From: a virus
DNA: 32,757 bases
IMG/VR virus record: IMGVR_UViG_3300032116_000811
Span: 1-32,757 of that record
Reading direction: 5' to 3' (one strand)
The translations under genes were made by a program, and so were the position numbers. Below, one piece after another: positions 26,655 to 32,757 of this stretch (within the stretch, counting starts at the first letter, position 1; every line of letters begins with the position of its first letter). The notes under the pieces were generated by a model, which was given only the letters and a program-made list of their open reading frames with translations, was not told the origin of the DNA and ran no database searches.

Positions 26655-27312
26655 CACCGAAATTCAAGCACCTAGTTACCACATGGTAAACAAGGACTCT
26701 ATGCTTTCTTTATCTAACGAGTTAAAGAGATTCGTTAAAGAAGCACACTTAGTATCTAACATTAAAGGCAAAGACTATTGTAATGTAGAAGCCTGGCAGA
26801 TGGCAGGAGCATCACTAGGCTTATTCCCTATCATTACAAGTGTACAAGACTTATCTAGTGAAACAGAGGTTAAGTACATGGCAACTTGCGAAGTTAGATC
26901 GTACCAAGACAATAAATTAGTATCTGTAGGTATAGCAATATGCTCTAACAAAGAGGGTAGCAAAAAGTTCTTTGATGAGTATGCTATCTTATCTATGGCA
27001 CAGACTAGAGCAGTAGGTAAAGCATTCCGTAATCAGTTAGCATGGTTGATGAAAGCTGCTGGATTCGAGGCGACACCTGCTGAGGAGATGGATTTTGTAC
27101 ATGAAGAGCCAAAAAAAACCTCTAAGCCAGTACAAACAGTTGTAGCTGAAATCTTAGAAGATGAGCCTACAAGAGAAGAAATAATGATGGAGGTAGCTAA
27201 ATGTACTAAGGTTAAGCAATTAACTGACACATACTTTACTTACAAGCAATCATTTGATTCTGATGAAACATTGATGAAGGTATTAAAAATGAAAAAAGAA
27301 AACCTAAAATAA
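26635..27312 (+). CDS. Possible single-strand annealing (Erf/Rad52-like) protein
   Basis: A 225 aa protein. The core (about 45-150) has CNVEAWQMAGASLGLFPII, then strands YMATCEVRSY and KLVSVGIAICSNKEG, and the helix LSMAQTRAVGKAFRNQLAWLMKAAGFEATPAEEM. The SMAQTRA-x-KA-R motif is shared with phage proteins resembling Erf/Rad52-type single-strand annealing proteins. The C-terminal ~70 residues are a linker and a small helical region. It would bind ssDNA in phage recombination. The family link is by pattern memory, not a search. Confidence 0.5.
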   Translation: MELQTTNTEIQAPSYHMVNKDSMLSLSNELKRFVKEAHLVSNIKGKDYCNVEAWQMAGASLGLFPIITSVQDLSSETEVKYMATCEVRSYQDNKLVSVGIAICSNKEGSKKFFDEYAILSMAQTRAVGKAFRNQLAWLMKAAGFEATPAEEMDFVHEEPKKTSKPVQTVVAEILEDEPTREEIMMEVAKCTKVKQLTDTYFTYKQSFDSDETLMKVLKMKKENLK

Positions 27313-27313
27313 A

Positions 27314-27778
27314 ATGAATTTAACATTATTACCAAAAGTAGAACTTAGTTCTATAGAACCGAACAAATTTGCTATTGAGTTAATCAAGTCGCAGATAGTA
27401 GATCACTTTACGCAGACTGGTGAGTCACCATTAGAACTACTCGTTAAGTCAGAGGCTGTTGTACAGCTTTTAGAAGGCATTAGAGCCGATTTAAAGGAGT
27501 TAGTACTAGATGAGCTTAGTAAGTATCCTGGAGGCAAAGCTGAGGTATTAGGAAGTGAAATGGCTAAGTTTGAATCAGGTGTTAAGTATATCTATGACCA
27601 AGACTATACTTGGAGCAAAATGAATGAAGAGATTGAGTCTTTAAAGTTTGCTTTAAAGGAAAGAGAAAAGATGCTTAGAACATTGCCAACCGCTATGGTT
27701 GATCCTGAATCAGGAGAAATGGTCCACCCAGCACCTAGAATAAGCACAACAACCTTTAAGATAAGCTTAAAGAAATAA
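27314..27778 (+). CDS. Conserved phage hypothetical, coiled-coil (154 aa)
   Basis: A 154 aa protein, helical overall (SEAVVQLLEGIRADLKELVLDEL, YTWSKMNEEIESLKFALKEREKMLRTLP) and ending with PESGEMVHPAPRISTTTFKISLK. Similar proteins ending in a VDPETGE-STTSFKVTL tail follow recombination genes in Bacteroidota phages, so it may partner the annealing-type protein one base upstream. Function unknown. Confidence 0.6.
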   Translation: MNLTLLPKVELSSIEPNKFAIELIKSQIVDHFTQTGESPLELLVKSEAVVQLLEGIRADLKELVLDELSKYPGGKAEVLGSEMAKFESGVKYIYDQDYTWSKMNEEIESLKFALKEREKMLRTLPTAMVDPESGEMVHPAPRISTTTFKISLKK

Positions 27779-27787
27779 AAATCCTCC

Positions 27788-27852
27788 ACCACCTCAAGAT
27801 ACCAATATTAATAACCTGATAGTAATTTATACAAAACTTGGGGTGGTTTTTT
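27788..27852 (+). terminator. Long-loop terminator candidate
   Basis: ACCACCTCAAG (27788-27798) pairs with CTTGGGGTGGT (27837-27847), eleven pairs with one G-T, enclosing a 38-base AT-rich loop, and runs into six T (27847-27852). The strong stem and T-run support termination after the 154 aa gene. The long loop is unusual and might carry a regulatory site. Confidence 0.6.
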
Positions 27853-27858
27853 AAACTT

Positions 27859-27930
27859 ATGATAATTATCTTAACAATAGCACTTTGGGAACTAGGCAAG
27901 ACCTTATTCTATAAACTTATAAACAAATGA
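27859..27930 (+). CDS. Possible 23 aa membrane peptide
   Basis: A frame MIIILTIALWELGKTLFYKL then INK starts six bases after the terminator T-run and overlaps the next frame by ATGA. Very short, so coding is uncertain. The coupled chain of overlaps is the main support. Confidence 0.3.
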   Translation: MIIILTIALWELGKTLFYKLINK

Positions 27931-28043
27931 AAGAAACACTTATTTTCTTATATGAATTAGTATATTTTGTAGTAATATCATTACCATTAGCTTTAACAAT
28001 TTATTTAACAGCATTAATTATCGGTAAATTTAAAAATATATGA
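27927..28043 (+). CDS. 38 aa membrane peptide
   Basis: The product starts MKETLIFLYELVYFVVISL, followed by a hydrophobic stretch (PLALTIYLTALIIG) and a basic tail (KFKNI): one or two membrane passes. It overlaps the upstream frame by ATGA (27927-27930) and the downstream gene by ATGA (28040-28043), a chain of coupled starts that favours real translation. No family recognised. Confidence 0.45.
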   Translation: MKETLIFLYELVYFVVISLPLALTIYLTALIIGKFKNI

Positions 28044-28252
28044 TGGAGATTGCAGGATTAGAGAACTCAGTACCAGTGAGGATGATTTATATTGATGACA
28101 AAAGTGAAGTATTGTTTAAATCTTTAGCTCATGCAGCAAGGAATACAAGAATCACACAAGACTCAATAAAGAAATCACTTAATCCATTACTAAAGAGGAA
28201 ATTTAAGCACAATAATAGAGATGTGGTTTTTAGGATAGTAAAGGATAAATAG
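28040..28252 (+). CDS. NUMOD-like small DNA-binding protein (70 aa)
   Basis: A 70 aa protein starting at either of two adjacent ATG (28040 or 28043). The segment EVLFKSLAHAARNTRITQDSIKKSLNPLLKRKFKHNNRDVVFRIV follows the pattern of NUMOD-type helix-turn-helix modules: strand, F-S-A-A-A helix, turn, T-x-x-S-I-K-K helix, then a strand with an F-x-I end. In phages such modules are often found alone or in homing endonucleases. The call is by pattern; target unknown. Confidence 0.55.
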   Translation: MMEIAGLENSVPVRMIYIDDKSEVLFKSLAHAARNTRITQDSIKKSLNPLLKRKFKHNNRDVVFRIVKDK

Positions 28253-28260
28253 TATATTTG
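28253..28260 (+). promoter_or_regulatory. Promoter -7 element before the structured RNA
   Basis: TATATTTG exactly fits the Bacteroidota TAnnTTTG consensus and lies five bases before the first hairpin arm of the structured RNA candidate, so transcription could start near 28265. A TTG -33 element is not clear upstream, so this is moderate support only. Confidence 0.4.
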
Positions 28261-28264
28261 TCGA

Positions 28265-28347
28265 TGCAAACCGTACTTTGCAGTTAAAACTTATTGCCCG
28301 AAGAGGCGTGGGGGTGTACGGACTCCCGCAAATCTGAGGGCTTTTTT
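28265..28347 (+). ncRNA. Structured RNA with complementary loops and terminator
   Basis: Hairpin 1 is TGCAAA (28265-28270), loop CCGTAC (28271-28276), TTTGCA (28277-28282). After a 13-base AT-rich linker, a second structure starts with GCCC (28296-28299) pairing GGGC (28338-28341), tandem G-A/G-A (28300-28301 with 28336-28337), AGA/TCT, an internal G/AAA loop and GGGGGT (28310-28315) pairing ACTCCC (28322-28327), closing loop GTACGG (28316-28321). The two six-base loops are perfect reverse complements, as in a kissing loop. A T6 run (28342-28347) follows the closing stem, as in a terminator. The next ATG (28353) is six bases on. It may be a small RNA or a leader attenuator of the replication gene. 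Class unknown. Confidence 0.55.
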
Positions 28348-28352
28348 ATTTT

Positions 28353-28994
28353 ATGAATACAGGAATGATTGTTAAGAGCAGATCGGCTGAGAAGTTTACT
28401 GCCATCGACAACGAGATTATTAGGAATGTCGAATTAACATTAGAGGAGAGAGGATTATTAATTTACTTACTTAGTATGAGGCATGATTGGGTGGTTTATA
28501 AAACTAACCTACATGAACGATTAGGTTGCACTAAAGGTCAACTAGACAGAGTTTTTAAGGGATTACAAACAAAGAACTATATCTTGTCTGTAAAGGTTAT
28601 AAATGAGCTTGGAAGATTTACTGGATGGAATCATGTAGTATATGATACACCAGCAATCCGAGATGATAAATCACCGAGTTCTATAAATGCCGAAGTCGGT
28701 GAAAGTGCCCCTATAAGTAATACTAATACAATTAATAGTAAATTAAATATTAAGAAGACTAAGTTTATAAGACCAACAGCTAATGAGATAGACTTATATG
28801 CTAAAGAAATAGGCTTTTTAACTCTTGATCCTTCTTATTTTATAGACCATTATGAATCTAATGGTTGGTTAATAGGTAAAAATCCCATGAAAGATTGGAA
28901 AGCTACTGTAAGAACTTGGAAAAGAAATAGTTCTAAATTTAATACTACTAACGTACCTACAAACAAAATAACTACACAAATAAAACTTAAATAA
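28353..28994 (+). CDS. Winged-helix replication initiation / helicase-loading protein
   Basis: A 213 aa protein. The N-terminal half (about 10-100) is a winged-helix domain with EIIRNVELTLEERGLLIYLLSMRHDWV, KTNLHERLGCTKGQLDRVFKGL and a wing of strands. The C-terminal half has FIDHYESNGWLIGKNPMKDWKATVRTWKRN, a motif common in DnaD-like or replication-O-type phage proteins that bring DnaB to the origin. The neighbouring DnaB gene supports this. It follows the structured RNA, which might regulate its expression. Confidence 0.75.
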   Translation: MNTGMIVKSRSAEKFTAIDNEIIRNVELTLEERGLLIYLLSMRHDWVVYKTNLHERLGCTKGQLDRVFKGLQTKNYILSVKVINELGRFTGWNHVVYDTPAIRDDKSPSSINAEVGESAPISNTNTINSKLNIKKTKFIRPTANEIDLYAKEIGFLTLDPSYFIDHYESNGWLIGKNPMKDWKATVRTWKRNSSKFNTTNVPTNKITTQIKLK

Positions 28995-29233
28995 TGACAC
29001 CAAAACAAAAAGCAAAAGAATTAGTAGATAAGTATAATAAAGATATAATACTATATTGGGATTTATCTTATAACCAAGCTAAAAAATGTGCATTAATAGC
29101 ATTAGATGAAATGATAGCAGAATTAGCTTATATAAGAAATTATGATGAAGAAATAGATGAAAAAATGATTATAAAAATAGACCAAAGACAAGATTTTTTA
29201 ATAGAAGTTGAAAAAGAAATAGAAGCATTATGA
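28994..29233 (+). CDS. Conserved phage hypothetical (79 aa)
   Basis: A 79 aa helical, acidic protein (KQKAKELVDKYNKDIILYWD, QAKKCALIALDEMIAELAYI). Similar short proteins with the KAKELVDKY...AKKCALIALDE pattern occur in replication modules of Bacteroidota phages. It overlaps the upstream stop as TAATG and the DnaB start as ATGA, so its product is made in step with the helicase. Function unknown. Confidence 0.6.
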   Translation: MTPKQKAKELVDKYNKDIILYWDLSYNQAKKCALIALDEMIAELAYIRNYDEEIDEKMIIKIDQRQDFLIEVEKEIEAL

Positions 29234-30567
29234 TTGCTATAAACCTACCAAAAGCTTTAGATATTGAATCTAACATACTTGGTGCATTGCTTTTAGACAA
29301 AAGAATTATCCCATTGGTTATAGGTCATCTAAAAACTGACATATTTTACGATCTAAAGCACCAAAAAATCTTTAATGCTATTAAGGAAATGTATGATAGT
29401 AACATATCTATAGACCTTACAACTGTAGCTCAAAAACTCTCACAAGATGAGGACATTATACGAGAAGGTGGTGCTTACTATCTATCTAAGTTAACTGATA
29501 ATGTAACTACAACAGCTCATATCAATACCCATATTGAGATTGTTATTGAGATGTATAAGAAGCGTGAAGCTTATAAAGTGCTTAGAATAGCTGAGAATAG
29601 TTGTTTAGACAACGATAGTCAGTCATTAAACCTTTTATCTGACCTAAATAGTCAACTTATAGGTTTACTAGAATATGGCAATCTTTATGAAAAAAGCATA
29701 ACAGACGTAGTTATGGCTATCAACTTTGCTAGGGATTTAGCAAGTAATGGCGAACTTTTAGGATTTAATACTGGTTTTGATGAATTAAACAAGACAATAG
29801 CAGGATGGTGTAAACCTGACCTATGTATTATAGCTGCAAGACCTGGTGCAGGTAAGACAGCAATGATGCTTTCAAGTGTTTATCACTTATCTATCTTAAA
29901 TAACGTCCCTACGGCTATTTTTAGCCTTGAAATGAGCTCCGAACAGCTTGTTGAAAGGTTAGAGTCAATAACGAGTCAAGTGCCCTTAAAACGCCTTAGA
30001 ACGAATAATTTGAATGACTACGAAAGAAAGCTACTTTTAAAGACCGATGACAAGATAATCACAGCACCCATCTACATAGAGGATACTGGAGGAATCAGTA
30101 TCTCACAACTCAGAGCTAAGGCTACTATTCTAAAGCAGAAGTATGGTATTAAGGTAATATTCCTAGACTATCTTCAACTTATGAGTGGTCAAGGTAAGCA
30201 AAACCAAAACCGAGAGCAGGAAGTAAGTTTTATAAGCAGAAGCCTTAAAGCCTTAGCCAAAGAGTTGGAAGTGCCTATTATTGCTTTATCGCAGTTAAGT
30301 CGTAAGGTAGAAGAAAGAGCTGATAAGCTACCTATGTTATCCGATCTTAGAGAATCAGGTAGTATTGAGCAAGATGCTGACATTGTTATTATGCTTATGA
30401 GACCATCTTACTACGAAATGAAAGAGCCTGTAGAGATTGGTGGTAAAGAATACCATCCTGACGACCTTGTTATTGTTAAGGTAGAAAAGAATAGACATGG
30501 TAAGACTGGTAATATACCTATTAGATTTATTGGAGAAACAACCACATTTGAAGATTATAAAATTTAA
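29230..30567 (+). CDS. dnaB: Replicative DNA helicase (DnaB family)
   Basis: A 445 aa hexameric helicase. The N-terminal helical domain (about 1-110) has the DnaB pattern (EILGALLLDKRIIP-type helix, AIKEMYDSNISIDLTTVAQKL, GGAYYLSKLTD). The RecA-type motor has Walker A ARPGAGKTA (about 203-211), the Walker B region IKVIFLDYLQLMSG and LSQLSRKVEERADKLPMLSDLRESGSIEQDADIV with the conserved SGSIEQDAD. It unwinds DNA at the phage fork, loaded by the upstream winged-helix protein. Length is near the bacterial DnaB norm. Confidence 0.95.
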   Translation: MIAINLPKALDIESNILGALLLDKRIIPLVIGHLKTDIFYDLKHQKIFNAIKEMYDSNISIDLTTVAQKLSQDEDIIREGGAYYLSKLTDNVTTTAHINTHIEIVIEMYKKREAYKVLRIAENSCLDNDSQSLNLLSDLNSQLIGLLEYGNLYEKSITDVVMAINFARDLASNGELLGFNTGFDELNKTIAGWCKPDLCIIAARPGAGKTAMMLSSVYHLSILNNVPTAIFSLEMSSEQLVERLESITSQVPLKRLRTNNLNDYERKLLLKTDDKIITAPIYIEDTGGISISQLRAKATILKQKYGIKVIFLDYLQLMSGQGKQNQNREQEVSFISRSLKALAKELEVPIIALSQLSRKVEERADKLPMLSDLRESGSIEQDADIVIMLMRPSYYEMKEPVEIGGKEYHPDDLVIVKVEKNRHGKTGNIPIRFIGETTTFEDYKI

Positions 30568-30571
30568 AACT

Positions 30572-30784
30572 ATGAAAACAGCAATGCAAGAATTACTAGA
30601 TGAATTAAAAGAATATCAACTAGAATTTAATATACCTATTGAAGTAATAGATATGTGCGAAAGTCAAATAAATGTAGAAAAAGAGCAGATAATGAATGCT
30701 TTTAGTAGAGGGTTAGGTACAGAATTAAGTGATTGGGAAAATTCAGAACAATATTATGATAGAACCTATAACCAAAACAAATAA
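30572..30784 (+). CDS. Conserved phage hypothetical (70 aa)
   Basis: ATG 30572 (MKTAMQELLDELKEYQLEFN) lies just after the DnaB stop. The longer in-frame start at 30497 would lie within DnaB and is rejected. The pattern ESQINVEKEQIMNAFSRGLG, then SEQYYDRTYN, recurs in small proteins of Bacteroidota and related phages. Function unknown. It probably shares the replication transcript. Confidence 0.65.
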   Translation: MKTAMQELLDELKEYQLEFNIPIEVIDMCESQINVEKEQIMNAFSRGLGTELSDWENSEQYYDRTYNQNK

Positions 30785-30785
30785 A

Positions 30786-31016
30786 ATGGAAACAAACATT
30801 ACACTTATCGACCAAAAATTCCCTGAAGTGGAATATGTGCAAGGCGAAGACCTTAATATAGAGAACATGAAAGAACGTATCGTTACTAAAGCATGGTATG
30901 ATACTGCTAGATTTAATGACATAACAGATATAGCAGTTGGTATCGGTATGGGTACTAGAACACTTTATTTTTATGCTAAGAAATTAAAACTACCTAGAAG
31001 AAGTGGACTTAAATAG
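30786..31016 (+). CDS. Hypothetical protein, possible HTH end (76 aa)
   Basis: ATG 30786 (METNITLIDQKFPEVEYVQG) follows the previous stop by one base. An earlier in-frame ATG at 30729 would overlap that gene and is rejected. The C-terminal segment NDITDIAVGIGMGTRTLYFYAKKLKLPRR looks like a small helix-turn-helix or DNA-contacting end. Function unknown; a role in transcription or replication is possible. Confidence 0.6.
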   Translation: METNITLIDQKFPEVEYVQGEDLNIENMKERIVTKAWYDTARFNDITDIAVGIGMGTRTLYFYAKKLKLPRRSGLK

Positions 31017-31374
31017 GAACTATAAGAATACTCGTAAGTTCGACATAGAACAAGCTAAGGCTAATGACGGAACTTATCAAGCATTGTTATTGTTTGCCAG
31101 GAACACAAAAATCTTGGTTATACAACAGCCAAAAGCATTGAAACAAAAATTCATGTGGCTTGAATATGAGAATAATGGTAAACCTAGTGGGATAGCTGAT
31201 ACAAGAGTAGAGTTCTTTGCTATCAACTTTGACCTTAAAGATAGGATATACTTTATACGAGCTGAGATGCTTAGAATAAAGGCAAGAAGGCACTTTAAGT
31301 GGGGTAAAACTAAGATAGTTGAGGGCATAAGATATGTAAAAGTTCCAACTGTGGAGATGATCCGTTTCGATTAA
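31003..31374 (+). CDS. Hypothetical protein with GTG start (123 aa)
   Basis: The frame begins at GTG 31003, overlapping the previous gene by 14 bases. No usable ATG occurs before about 31152. The product has an alternating strand/helix core: AKANDGTYQALLLFARNTKI, LVIQQPKALKQKFMWLEYENN, YFIRAEMLRIKARRHFKWGKTKI. The basic, aromatic-rich centre could bind nucleic acid. No family is recognised. It lies between replication and VRR-NUC genes. Confidence 0.55.
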   Translation: MDLNRNYKNTRKFDIEQAKANDGTYQALLLFARNTKILVIQQPKALKQKFMWLEYENNGKPSGIADTRVEFFAINFDLKDRIYFIRAEMLRIKARRHFKWGKTKIVEGIRYVKVPTVEMIRFD

Positions 31375-31393
31375 TTAATGTAATTTCGTTTAT

Positions 31394-31774
31394 ATGACAT
31401 ACAAAACAGCAAGTGACTTAACCAAGATGATGCTAGAATATTTAGATAGTTTAGGTTATGAAGTATGGAGGAATAATAACCTAGCAGTTAAAGGAAGGTC
31501 TTTCATTGGTAAGAAAGGTTTACCTGACATCATAGGTTACCATAAGAACTATGGTCAGTTCATTGCTTGTGAGATTAAAGCTATAGGAGATAGATTAAGC
31601 GTATCACAAACAAGTTTCTTAACTCACTTAGGTATGTGCGGTGGCACATCTATTGTATGTCAACAAGTATCAGACGGAACAATTAATTTAACAATATTTT
31701 TAGACAATGGCGAAAGCAAAATCAGCATCTGGAACGAGTATGAAGGTGAGTTTCGGAACGAAGAAGACAGGTAG
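31394..31774 (+). CDS. VRR-NUC domain endonuclease
   Basis: A 126 aa VRR-NUC-type nuclease of the PD-(D/E)xK superfamily. The catalytic elements are GLPDIIGYH (D45) and FIACEIKA (E60, K62), followed by DRLSVSQTSFLTHL (Q72). Single-domain VRR-NUC proteins are common in phages and may cut branched or Holliday-junction DNA during recombination and before packaging. It shares its last 68 bases with a nested basic gene in another frame. Confidence 0.85.
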   Translation: MTYKTASDLTKMMLEYLDSLGYEVWRNNNLAVKGRSFIGKKGLPDIIGYHKNYGQFIACEIKAIGDRLSVSQTSFLTHLGMCGGTSIVCQQVSDGTINLTIFLDNGESKISIWNEYEGEFRNEEDR

Positions 31775-31838
31775 AGCAAAGAAATCTTATAACAAACATA
31801 GTCCAAGACCTAAAGCATATCGTGGTCAAGGACGTTAA
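31707..31838 (+). CDS. Nested small basic protein (43 aa)
   Basis: A frame starts at ATG 31707, inside the last part of the VRR-NUC gene (+1 frame, 68-base overlap), and ends at TAA 31838. The product MAKAKSASGTSMKVSFGTKK then TGRAKKSYNKHSPRPKAYRGQGR is very basic (about 13 Lys/Arg in 43) with no hydrophobic core, so it likely binds nucleic acid. It exactly fills the space to the next gene. The charge bias and orderly end favour a real gene, but a chance frame is possible. Confidence 0.5.
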   Translation: MAKAKSASGTSMKVSFGTKKTGRAKKSYNKHSPRPKAYRGQGR

Positions 31839-31848
31839 AACAACAATT

Positions 31849-32061
31849 ATGGAAAATCTAGAATTAGAAAACAAATCAGAAAAAGTATCTAAGACAACTA
31901 CAAAAGAAGTTAAAGTTACTGTAGTTCCTAAGGAAAACAAGTTTGTAACTGCTGAAACTATTAAGTTAGTAGAAGACATCTTAAACGATGGTACAGTAGA
32001 CATCAAATGGAGAGCACAACTTAAAGAACAAGTAAGAAAATACAAAGGGCATGGAGAATAA
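31849..32061 (+). CDS. Acidic/basic hypothetical protein (70 aa)
   Basis: ATG 31849 (MENLELENKSEKVSKTTTKE) follows a short leader. An in-frame ATG at 31822 would overlap the nested gene and is less likely. After a disordered lysine/threonine-rich start (to about 28) comes a helical end: AETIKLVEDILNDGTVDIKWRAQLKEQVRK. No family recognised. Confidence 0.6.
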   Translation: MENLELENKSEKVSKTTTKEVKVTVVPKENKFVTAETIKLVEDILNDGTVDIKWRAQLKEQVRKYKGHGE

Positions 32062-32260
32062 TTATGAGTATGATTCAGTCGTAGAGAGTGTTATTAATCG
32101 TTTAAAAGATAGGGCAAGGATTGGTTTTGAAAAGTATGGAACAGACCTTGACAGAAACGACTTAATAACAGAGCAATGGATTGAACACGCAATAGAAGAG
32201 GCATTAGATTTTAGTCTATACCTAACCAAGCTTAAAAATCAATTAAAAAAGAGTTTATAA
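32051..32260 (+). CDS. MazG-like or related small helical protein (69 aa)
   Basis: A 69 aa helical protein. NRLKDRARIGFEKYGTDLDR, then ITEQWIEHAIEEALDFSLYL, resembles small phage proteins related to MazG-like nucleotide pyrophosphohydrolases (the EAxD pattern with acidic residues on the helix). Such proteins may lower (d)NTP or alarmone levels. It is short for an active MazG (usually near 100 aa). The call is by pattern only. Confidence 0.5.
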   Translation: MENNYEYDSVVESVINRLKDRARIGFEKYGTDLDRNDLITEQWIEHAIEEALDFSLYLTKLKNQLKKSL

Positions 32261-32277
32261 ACCAAAACAAAAATAAC

Positions 32278-32532
32278 ATGGCAACGCAAAAAGAGAACTT
32301 CTTAGGAAGATGTTTCACACTTAGATCAGCTTACGGATCATTCAGAAAAGTATCATTCGGTCCAGAGGACTTAAAGAAACTAAATGAGTTCGCAGCATCT
32401 AACAAAGGATGGTGTTCTATCCTTATCAAAGACAAAAAGAACGCAGGACCTGAACAAAGTGATTTCTATTGTGAAATGGACACATTTAAAGCAGGTGATT
32501 ATAAACCAACGGATAAAAAATTACCATTTTAG
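32278..32532 (+). CDS. Small protein with SSB-like C-terminal tip (84 aa)
   Basis: An 84 aa protein starting after the A-rich leader AACCAAAACAAAAATAAC. The body is strand-rich (CFTLRSAYGSFRKVSFGPED, SNKGWCSILIKDKKN). It ends GDYKPTDKKLPF, similar to the LPF/IPF tip of single-stranded DNA-binding proteins that recruits partner proteins, but with lysines in place of the usual acidic run. A role in ssDNA metabolism is possible. An OB-fold is not demonstrable by eye. Confidence 0.55.
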   Translation: MATQKENFLGRCFTLRSAYGSFRKVSFGPEDLKKLNEFAASNKGWCSILIKDKKNAGPEQSDFYCEMDTFKAGDYKPTDKKLPF

Positions 32533-32534
32533 TT

Positions 32535-32723
32535 ATGAATCCAAAAATTTACAAAGAAATAATCATTAACCTATCACTTTTATTAGTAGGTTTGTATCTA
32601 CCATTTGCATTTATTATTAATAAGTACAACCCATTAGGTTGGGAATGGTATGAAAGATGTTTATACGTTATAGCAGTTGTAGCAACTATAGGTTATGCTT
32701 CATCGGTATATAACAAAAAGTAG
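32535..32723 (+). CDS. Two-pass membrane protein (62 aa)
   Basis: A 62 aa protein with two predicted membrane segments: about residues 9-27 (IIINLSLLLVGLYLPFAFII) and about 41-58 (RCLYVIAVVATIGYASSVY), ending NKK. It follows the SSB-tip-like gene by two bases and is probably co-transcribed. No family recognised; it could be an early membrane effector. The last 34 bases of the window (32724-32757) hold nothing I can call. Confidence 0.55.
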   Translation: MNPKIYKEIIINLSLLLVGLYLPFAFIINKYNPLGWEWYERCLYVIAVVATIGYASSVYNKK

Positions 32724-32757
32724 TATGTTTTGTTTGTAGTTTAATAAGTTAGACCCT

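Follow-up and report, generated by a model that had tools for sequence, protein, structure and literature searches.

A structured RNA leader with two loop-complementary hairpins, located directly upstream of a phage replication gene, was found to represent an RNA family outside Rfam that is unannotated in the named isolates examined. The leader probably controls the amount of replication gene product made, and it is tentatively read here as the 5' leader RNA of a phage replication-initiation operon acting as a cis-acting transcription attenuator held by a loop-loop pseudoknot. It stands at a control point of phage replication, its loop pair is a natural case of frequent, concerted double change, and it provides a clean system for asking whether phage RNA-RNA specificity is selected or drifting. 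As elemo, lillamy, morran, and FCL-2 isolates exist, transcription, termination, and loop swaps are directly testable.

In the window (i.e., the whole stretch of DNA analysed, a virus record of 32.8 kb), the minus strand encodes tail, capsid, and terminase proteins, and the early genes are on the plus strand. The leader locus and the gene behind it comprise the following features, given with the basis of each assignment:

28253..28260, plus strand: TAnnTTTG promoter element of the Bacteroidota type, TATATTTG (sequence)
28265..28282, plus strand: hairpin 1 (HP1), stem TGCAAA/TTTGCA (6 bp), loop CCGTAC (fold)
28283..28295, plus strand: A-rich single-stranded linker between the hairpins, 13 nt (sequence)
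28296..28341, plus strand: hairpin 2 (HP2), terminator-like, with internal loops and apical loop GTACGG (fold)
28342..28352, plus strand: T6 run (28342-28347) and short spacer to the start codon (sequence)
28353..28994, plus strand: replication gene, DnaD-like helicase loader or replisome organiser, 213 aa (PHROG 186, 428, and others)

The promoter element, both hairpins, the matching loops, and the T6 run had been described at 28253-28352 in an earlier sequence-only reading and were all found where it had placed them. The promoter element lies immediately 3' of the stop codon of an ORF at 28040-28252. HP1 contributes the 5' kissing partner (28271-28276) and HP2 (28296-28341, GCCC-GA-AGA-GGC-GTGGGGGT-GTACGG-ACTCCCGC-AAA-TCT-GA-GGGC) the 3' kissing partner in its apical loop (28316-28321). 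The end of the leader RNA is followed after 11 nt by the ATG at 28353 of the DnaD-like gene, whose product matched PHROG 186 (1.2e-11), had no Pfam match, and is succeeded by a DnaB-type helicase gene; in the window sequence, no promoter element occurs between HP2 and this start codon. A short ORF upstream, which reads MQTVLCS in the window, was rejected, as relatives did not show it. The preceding transcription unit is closed by a long-loop terminator (ACCACCTCAAG ... CTTGGGGTGGT, then T6) at window positions 27787-27852.

In the minimum-energy fold of the window leader, both hairpins were formed and both loops were free (-30.9 kcal/mol; z = -2.5, with 5 of 200 shuffles equally good), and when relatives were folded without the kiss, the minimum-energy structure of most likewise had both hairpins and unpaired kissing bases. 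Searches with Rfam 15 covariance models bore out the earlier impression of an unknown RNA family: the window had no match at the gathering threshold, the leader region at E ≤ 10 had a single sub-threshold Dictyostelium match on the opposite strand, ten related loci yielded tRNA and DUF805b only (both elsewhere than the leader), and the FCL-2 region had no match. The DUF805b RNA (RF02914, 52 bits) is located in Flavobacterium phage morran9-1 (L292:12838-12872), just upstream of the ParB-like gene gp40.

Relatives were collected by searching IMG/VR with the replication protein (100% down to ~45% identity and below), and the DNA upstream of their start codons showed the same part order in different letters. 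The comparative set consisted of 34 non-redundant RNAs (93% similarity cut), in which the order and spacing of promoter, HP1, linker, HP2, T-run, and ATG are kept, so that a compact RNA with loop-complementary hairpins and a predicted terminator before the replication gene, as first proposed for the window, also appears in the homologues. Medians (n = 34) were 3 nt from TAnnTTTG to HP1, 6 bp for HP1, 7 nt for the kiss, 18 nt for the linker, 19 and 18 nt for the HP2 arms, and 11 nt from the stem to the ATG; T content after the stem was 6-9 of 10 nt in all members (median 8 of 10). TAnnTTTG is degenerate in a few relatives, and the T-run is imperfect in L084 and L085 (TTCTTATTT, TTATTATTT). A variant leader of ~150 nt was found in L101 and L104 (about 2834-2990), with the 3' kissing segment beside an inner hairpin and not in the apical loop; L097, L110, L116, and L118 resemble it.

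The HP1 and HP2 loops of the 34 members are complementary via 26 different kissing sequences of 6-9 nt, and when the loop of one type was compared with HP2 of another, pairing of at least 6 nt was found in just 7 of 1082 cross pairs. Homologues were checked for stems or loops varying without compensation, and strong compensatory change was seen instead: each HP1 stem position uses 4-5 pair types across the 34 relatives, the outer HP2 stem pairs vary with compensation, and over all stem positions the range is 4-6 pair types per position, G-U pairs among them (7 of 170 in HP1, 9 of 136 in the HP2 outer stem). A cruciform at the DNA level was disfavoured, as the G-U pairs in the stems, the promoter, and the T-run favour RNA. 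When all members were aligned with MAFFT, the loops came out misaligned, and a sequence-only model (R1) was left out of the results.

As a promoter and loop complementarity are built into the main descriptor, a strict, promoter-free version was run as an unbiased test on 31 non-redundant regions selected solely for preceding a homologous ATG. The motif was detected in 25 of these regions versus 159 of 3100 shuffled copies (5%). Three further regions (L032, L129, L131) show the motif by eye with a short stem or weak T-run and were missed by the strict descriptor; L099, L108, and L112 are without it. Genome-wide, the descriptor is unspecific (54 matches in 4.9 Mb of shuffled DNA), and a loose pattern scan of IMG/VR returned mostly chance matches. 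Hence, only matches adjoining start codons or homologous genes were counted.

Several features of the window did not extend to the family. The tandem G-A pairs of HP2 are not conserved (e.g., L027 has AA/GC there). The alternative TTTGC/GCAAA helix, suggested earlier as a switch, is real in the window and unconserved: the 5-nt match between HP1 arm and HP2, the one form of antiterminator helix searched for, occurs in 7 of 34 members with 5.3 expected from cross-pairing. A ligand-sensing leader, likewise suggested, is unlikely, as unpaired sequence is not conserved across subfamilies and HP2 in some members such as L125 can be interpreted as a nearly uninterrupted helix; no conserved unpaired ligand-binding nucleotides were found, and internal-loop motifs are shared within subfamilies only.

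Among Flavobacterium phages, the leader is present in five or more named genera, and contigs of many metagenomes carry it as well. Named isolates carrying it without annotation include FCL-2, members of Lillamyvirus, Muminvirus, and Hattifnattvirus, and Elemovirus; elemoA-D, the lillamy/morran group, and FCL-2, all virulent, share the layout. The kissing pair is TGAGAGC/GCTCTCA in Flavobacterium phages elemoB, elemoC, and elemoD, GTGAGATG/CATCTCAC in elemoA, GTGAGACG/CGTCTCAC in lillamy, hemulen, sniff, snork, stinky, filifjonk, tooticki, and hattifnatt, GTGAGAAG/CTTCTCAC in morran, and CATCCAC/GTGGATG in FCL-2, where the leader lies between gp53 and gp54. The first (N-terminal) domains encoded by the downstream genes are unrelated (DnaD-like, DUF1376, HTH_36, Phg_2220_C, NUMOD4-HNH, MUG113/T5orf172). 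As the ATG nevertheless usually follows 6-21 nt past the stem before such non-homologous genes, the fixed neighbour of the leader is a start codon and not one gene; the distance to the next ATG is 27-51 nt in elemo and lillamy. Contig L013 carries two leader copies with unrelated loops. Scans of phages 6H, P2559S, P12002L, and parts of C1_85S2P and AS73P1 gave no convincing leader copy. A protein scan of host genomes found no relative, one subfamily pattern matched host genomes only three times, in unrelated organisms, and plasmids contained only distant relatives of the replication protein, with no Bacteroidota among the source organisms listed.

Hairpin lengths are traded against each other across relatives. 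HP1 length was negatively correlated with the length of the HP2 5' arm (rho = -0.62, p = 4e-4, n = 28), and the sum of HP1, kiss, and HP2 arm was 32.2 ± 1.7 bp, with 0 of 5000 permutations as tight, in statistics that ignore the relatedness of the sequences and include a few hand-set helix ends. The set leaves out L097, L110, L116, L118, and L101, in which the kissing segment lies beside an inner hairpin. In the 28 relatives with symmetric HP2, the linker measured 16.5 ± 3.2 nt, which by our own span estimate is just long enough to span a rod of ~32 bp. The near-constant reach of ~32 bp maintained by this trade therefore favours, as judged from the sequences, loop pairing within one molecule.

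In the proposed attenuator, host RNA polymerase would start a few nt past TATATTTG and HP1 would form at the extreme 5' end of the transcript. The linker would allow the HP1 loop to pair with the HP2 loop of the same molecule, as the preserved complementarity suggests, and HP2 with the U-run would constitute an intrinsic terminator right before the start codon. Most transcripts would stop there, yielding a stable terminated leader of about 80-85 nt as a by-product, and the replication protein would be made from read-through alone, with the kiss setting the speed and firmness of terminator formation. The succession of putative promoter, leader, and terminator-like hairpin without an intervening promoter is seen in the 34 members. 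With no promoter between HP2 and ATG, the gene would depend on read-through unless the T-run fails to terminate, and for this reason a cis-acting attenuator is preferred. As the module stands before unrelated genes, its input would be of a general kind (polymerase, RNases, a shared phage protein, or the level of the RNA itself) and not the gene product. Against attenuation stand the lack of a conserved antiterminator helix in the form searched for, the imperfect T-run of some members, and the larger ATG distance in elemo and lillamy, and attenuation alone does not explain the frequent rewriting of the loops. Literature searches found no transcript data for these phages. The phage small RNA and the attenuator, offered earlier as separate options, may both be correct.

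Loop turnover was assessed in 33 close pairs, in which 23% of kissing, 20% of linker, 14% of HP1 stem, and 7.5% of HP2 positions differ. Kissing bases thus change as fast as the unpaired linker, although each change needs a match. Turnover is bimodal: in 12 pairs the loops are unchanged, and in 11 their divergence exceeds that of the rest more than twofold. The RNAs of L101 and L104, whose loci are 95% identical over 3.6 kb, are identical save three compensated kissing pairs, and between L019 and L154 there are differences at 10 of the 14 kissing positions and at 3 of the 41 aligned positions of HP2. Such concerted change can mean that private loops are selected for, or that the two inverted repeats correct each other in concert.

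The fast and bimodal turnover, the L101/L104 comparison, the unrelated loops of the two L013 copies, and the leader's own putative promoter and terminator are the evidence for a trans-acting, self-recognising sRNA of the incompatibility or superinfection type, which is conceivable, if unlikely. The terminated RNA would pair with the same RNA from other genome copies and limit the replication gene of like genomes, and phages would escape by rewriting both loops. However, the geometry favours closure within one molecule, and antisense TAnnTT[TC]G elements, in a search covering consensus promoters only, were found in just 5 of 34 regions at scattered positions, none conserved. Inverted-repeat-templated mutation or relaxed constraint on loop identity could also give fast concerted change. 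Phages of the mumin group (PMC7077304), to which lillamy- and morran-type isolates were assigned in this analysis, and FCL-2 (PMC8092290) are described as virulent and have no need of lysogenic immunity, which weakens that version of the idea. Self-recognition by one RNA in virulent phages is a similarly doubtful form of it: each lineage would have a private loop pair, the leader would target the replication gene of its own phage or of similar co-infecting phages, and loop switching would create mutually blind types comparable to plasmid incompatibility groups.

Plasmid replication control systems offer partial parallels. In ColE1, loops of ~7 nt of RNAI and RNAII kiss, with stems directly beside the paired loop as in the leader; in contrast to the leader, the partners are sense and antisense RNAs and no rep gene lies downstream. 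I-complex plasmids have a pseudoknot with a role at rep. Kissing loops at a replication gene are shared with RNAI and stem-loop I of these plasmids, among which the RNAI of IncK1 and IncK2 differ by five nt and few loop changes make new types (PMC10724649). In those plasmids, the other strand supplies the partner as an antisense RNA, whereas here both loops are on one RNA and no conserved antisense promoter was found. Given that neither such a promoter nor a conserved antiterminator helix was detected, the leader is, as tested, neither a plasmid antisense system nor a classical two-state attenuator. Leader attenuators of the pT181 type have a promoter, structured leader, and terminator directly before the replication gene, the same order as here; they differ in that the phage leader shows no conserved antiterminator helix and no detected antisense RNA, the terminator loop being complementary to the 5' hairpin instead.

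The T4 gene 32 mRNA pseudoknot, an autoregulatory leader of a phage replication protein, is the model for a translational operator, which we regard as rather improbable. In this scheme, the pseudoknot by the AUG would govern ribosome access or bind a shared phage protein (e.g., single-strand binding protein), and the U-rich stretch would be the initiation region and not a terminator tail. Consistent with it are the usual stem-ATG spacing before non-homologous genes and the position of the start codon in a U-rich, structure-free stretch. However, a T-rich tail typical of terminators is right behind the stem in all 34 members, the spacing is larger in elemo and lillamy, and the unrelated downstream proteins make no common autoregulator evident, which also argues against autoregulation by the gene product as for gene 32. 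In both systems, the start codon for a replication protein lies at an A/U-rich stretch behind a phage mRNA leader pseudoknot (here predicted); the T4 structure is an H-type pseudoknot without a terminator, whereas here two hairpins would kiss, the second with a T-run. By analogy, the leader would work most like such a phage leader pseudoknot with ColE1/IncI-like kissing-loop chemistry.

GC skew is clearly positive from ~27 kb (window 27000-32757), plus-strand genes already start near 22.7 kb, and the turn near 27 kb might be a sign of a replication origin near the leader. A transcript priming or opening an origin beside the replication gene would fit this skew and the promoter and predicted short terminated RNA adjoining that gene, but the HNH-associated leader copy of L013 is away from the replication gene and the skew could track gene direction, making an origin RNA improbable. 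Nor is there much to recommend a multimer-forming structural RNA in the manner of the phi29 packaging RNA, a phage small RNA that pairs its loops between molecules, has a three-way junction, and serves the packaging motor. Two mutually complementary loops with little sequence conservation are common to both; those of the leader RNA are fully complementary, arbitrary in sequence, and could form rings or chains, but intermolecular pairing, a three-way junction, and a packaging role are not indicated here: the fold shows two separate hairpins, the length trade-off fits closure within one molecule, and the leader adjoins replication genes, with terminase and portal ~7-10 kb off on the other strand. 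Hairpins arising by chance, or an ordinary terminator whose loop match is a coincidence, are suggested by the descriptor's matches in shuffled DNA and are refuted by the excess over shuffles in the unbiased regions and the 26 different matching loop pairs, leaving this explanation with hardly any credibility.

A homing-endonuclease-like gene is located directly behind the leader in L013, L065, L068, L080, L197, L303, L315, and L326, i.e., NUMOD4-HNH in L013, HNH-like by eye in L065, L068, and L080, and MUG113/T5orf172 in L197 and L315 and by similarity in L303 and L326. Insertion may be favoured at the leader junction, or these genes may carry the leader along. In L197 and L068, the gene lies between leader and replication gene, and in L013, the second leader copy (L013:3254-3350) and its HNH gene occupy the position equivalent to the upstream long-loop terminator of the window.
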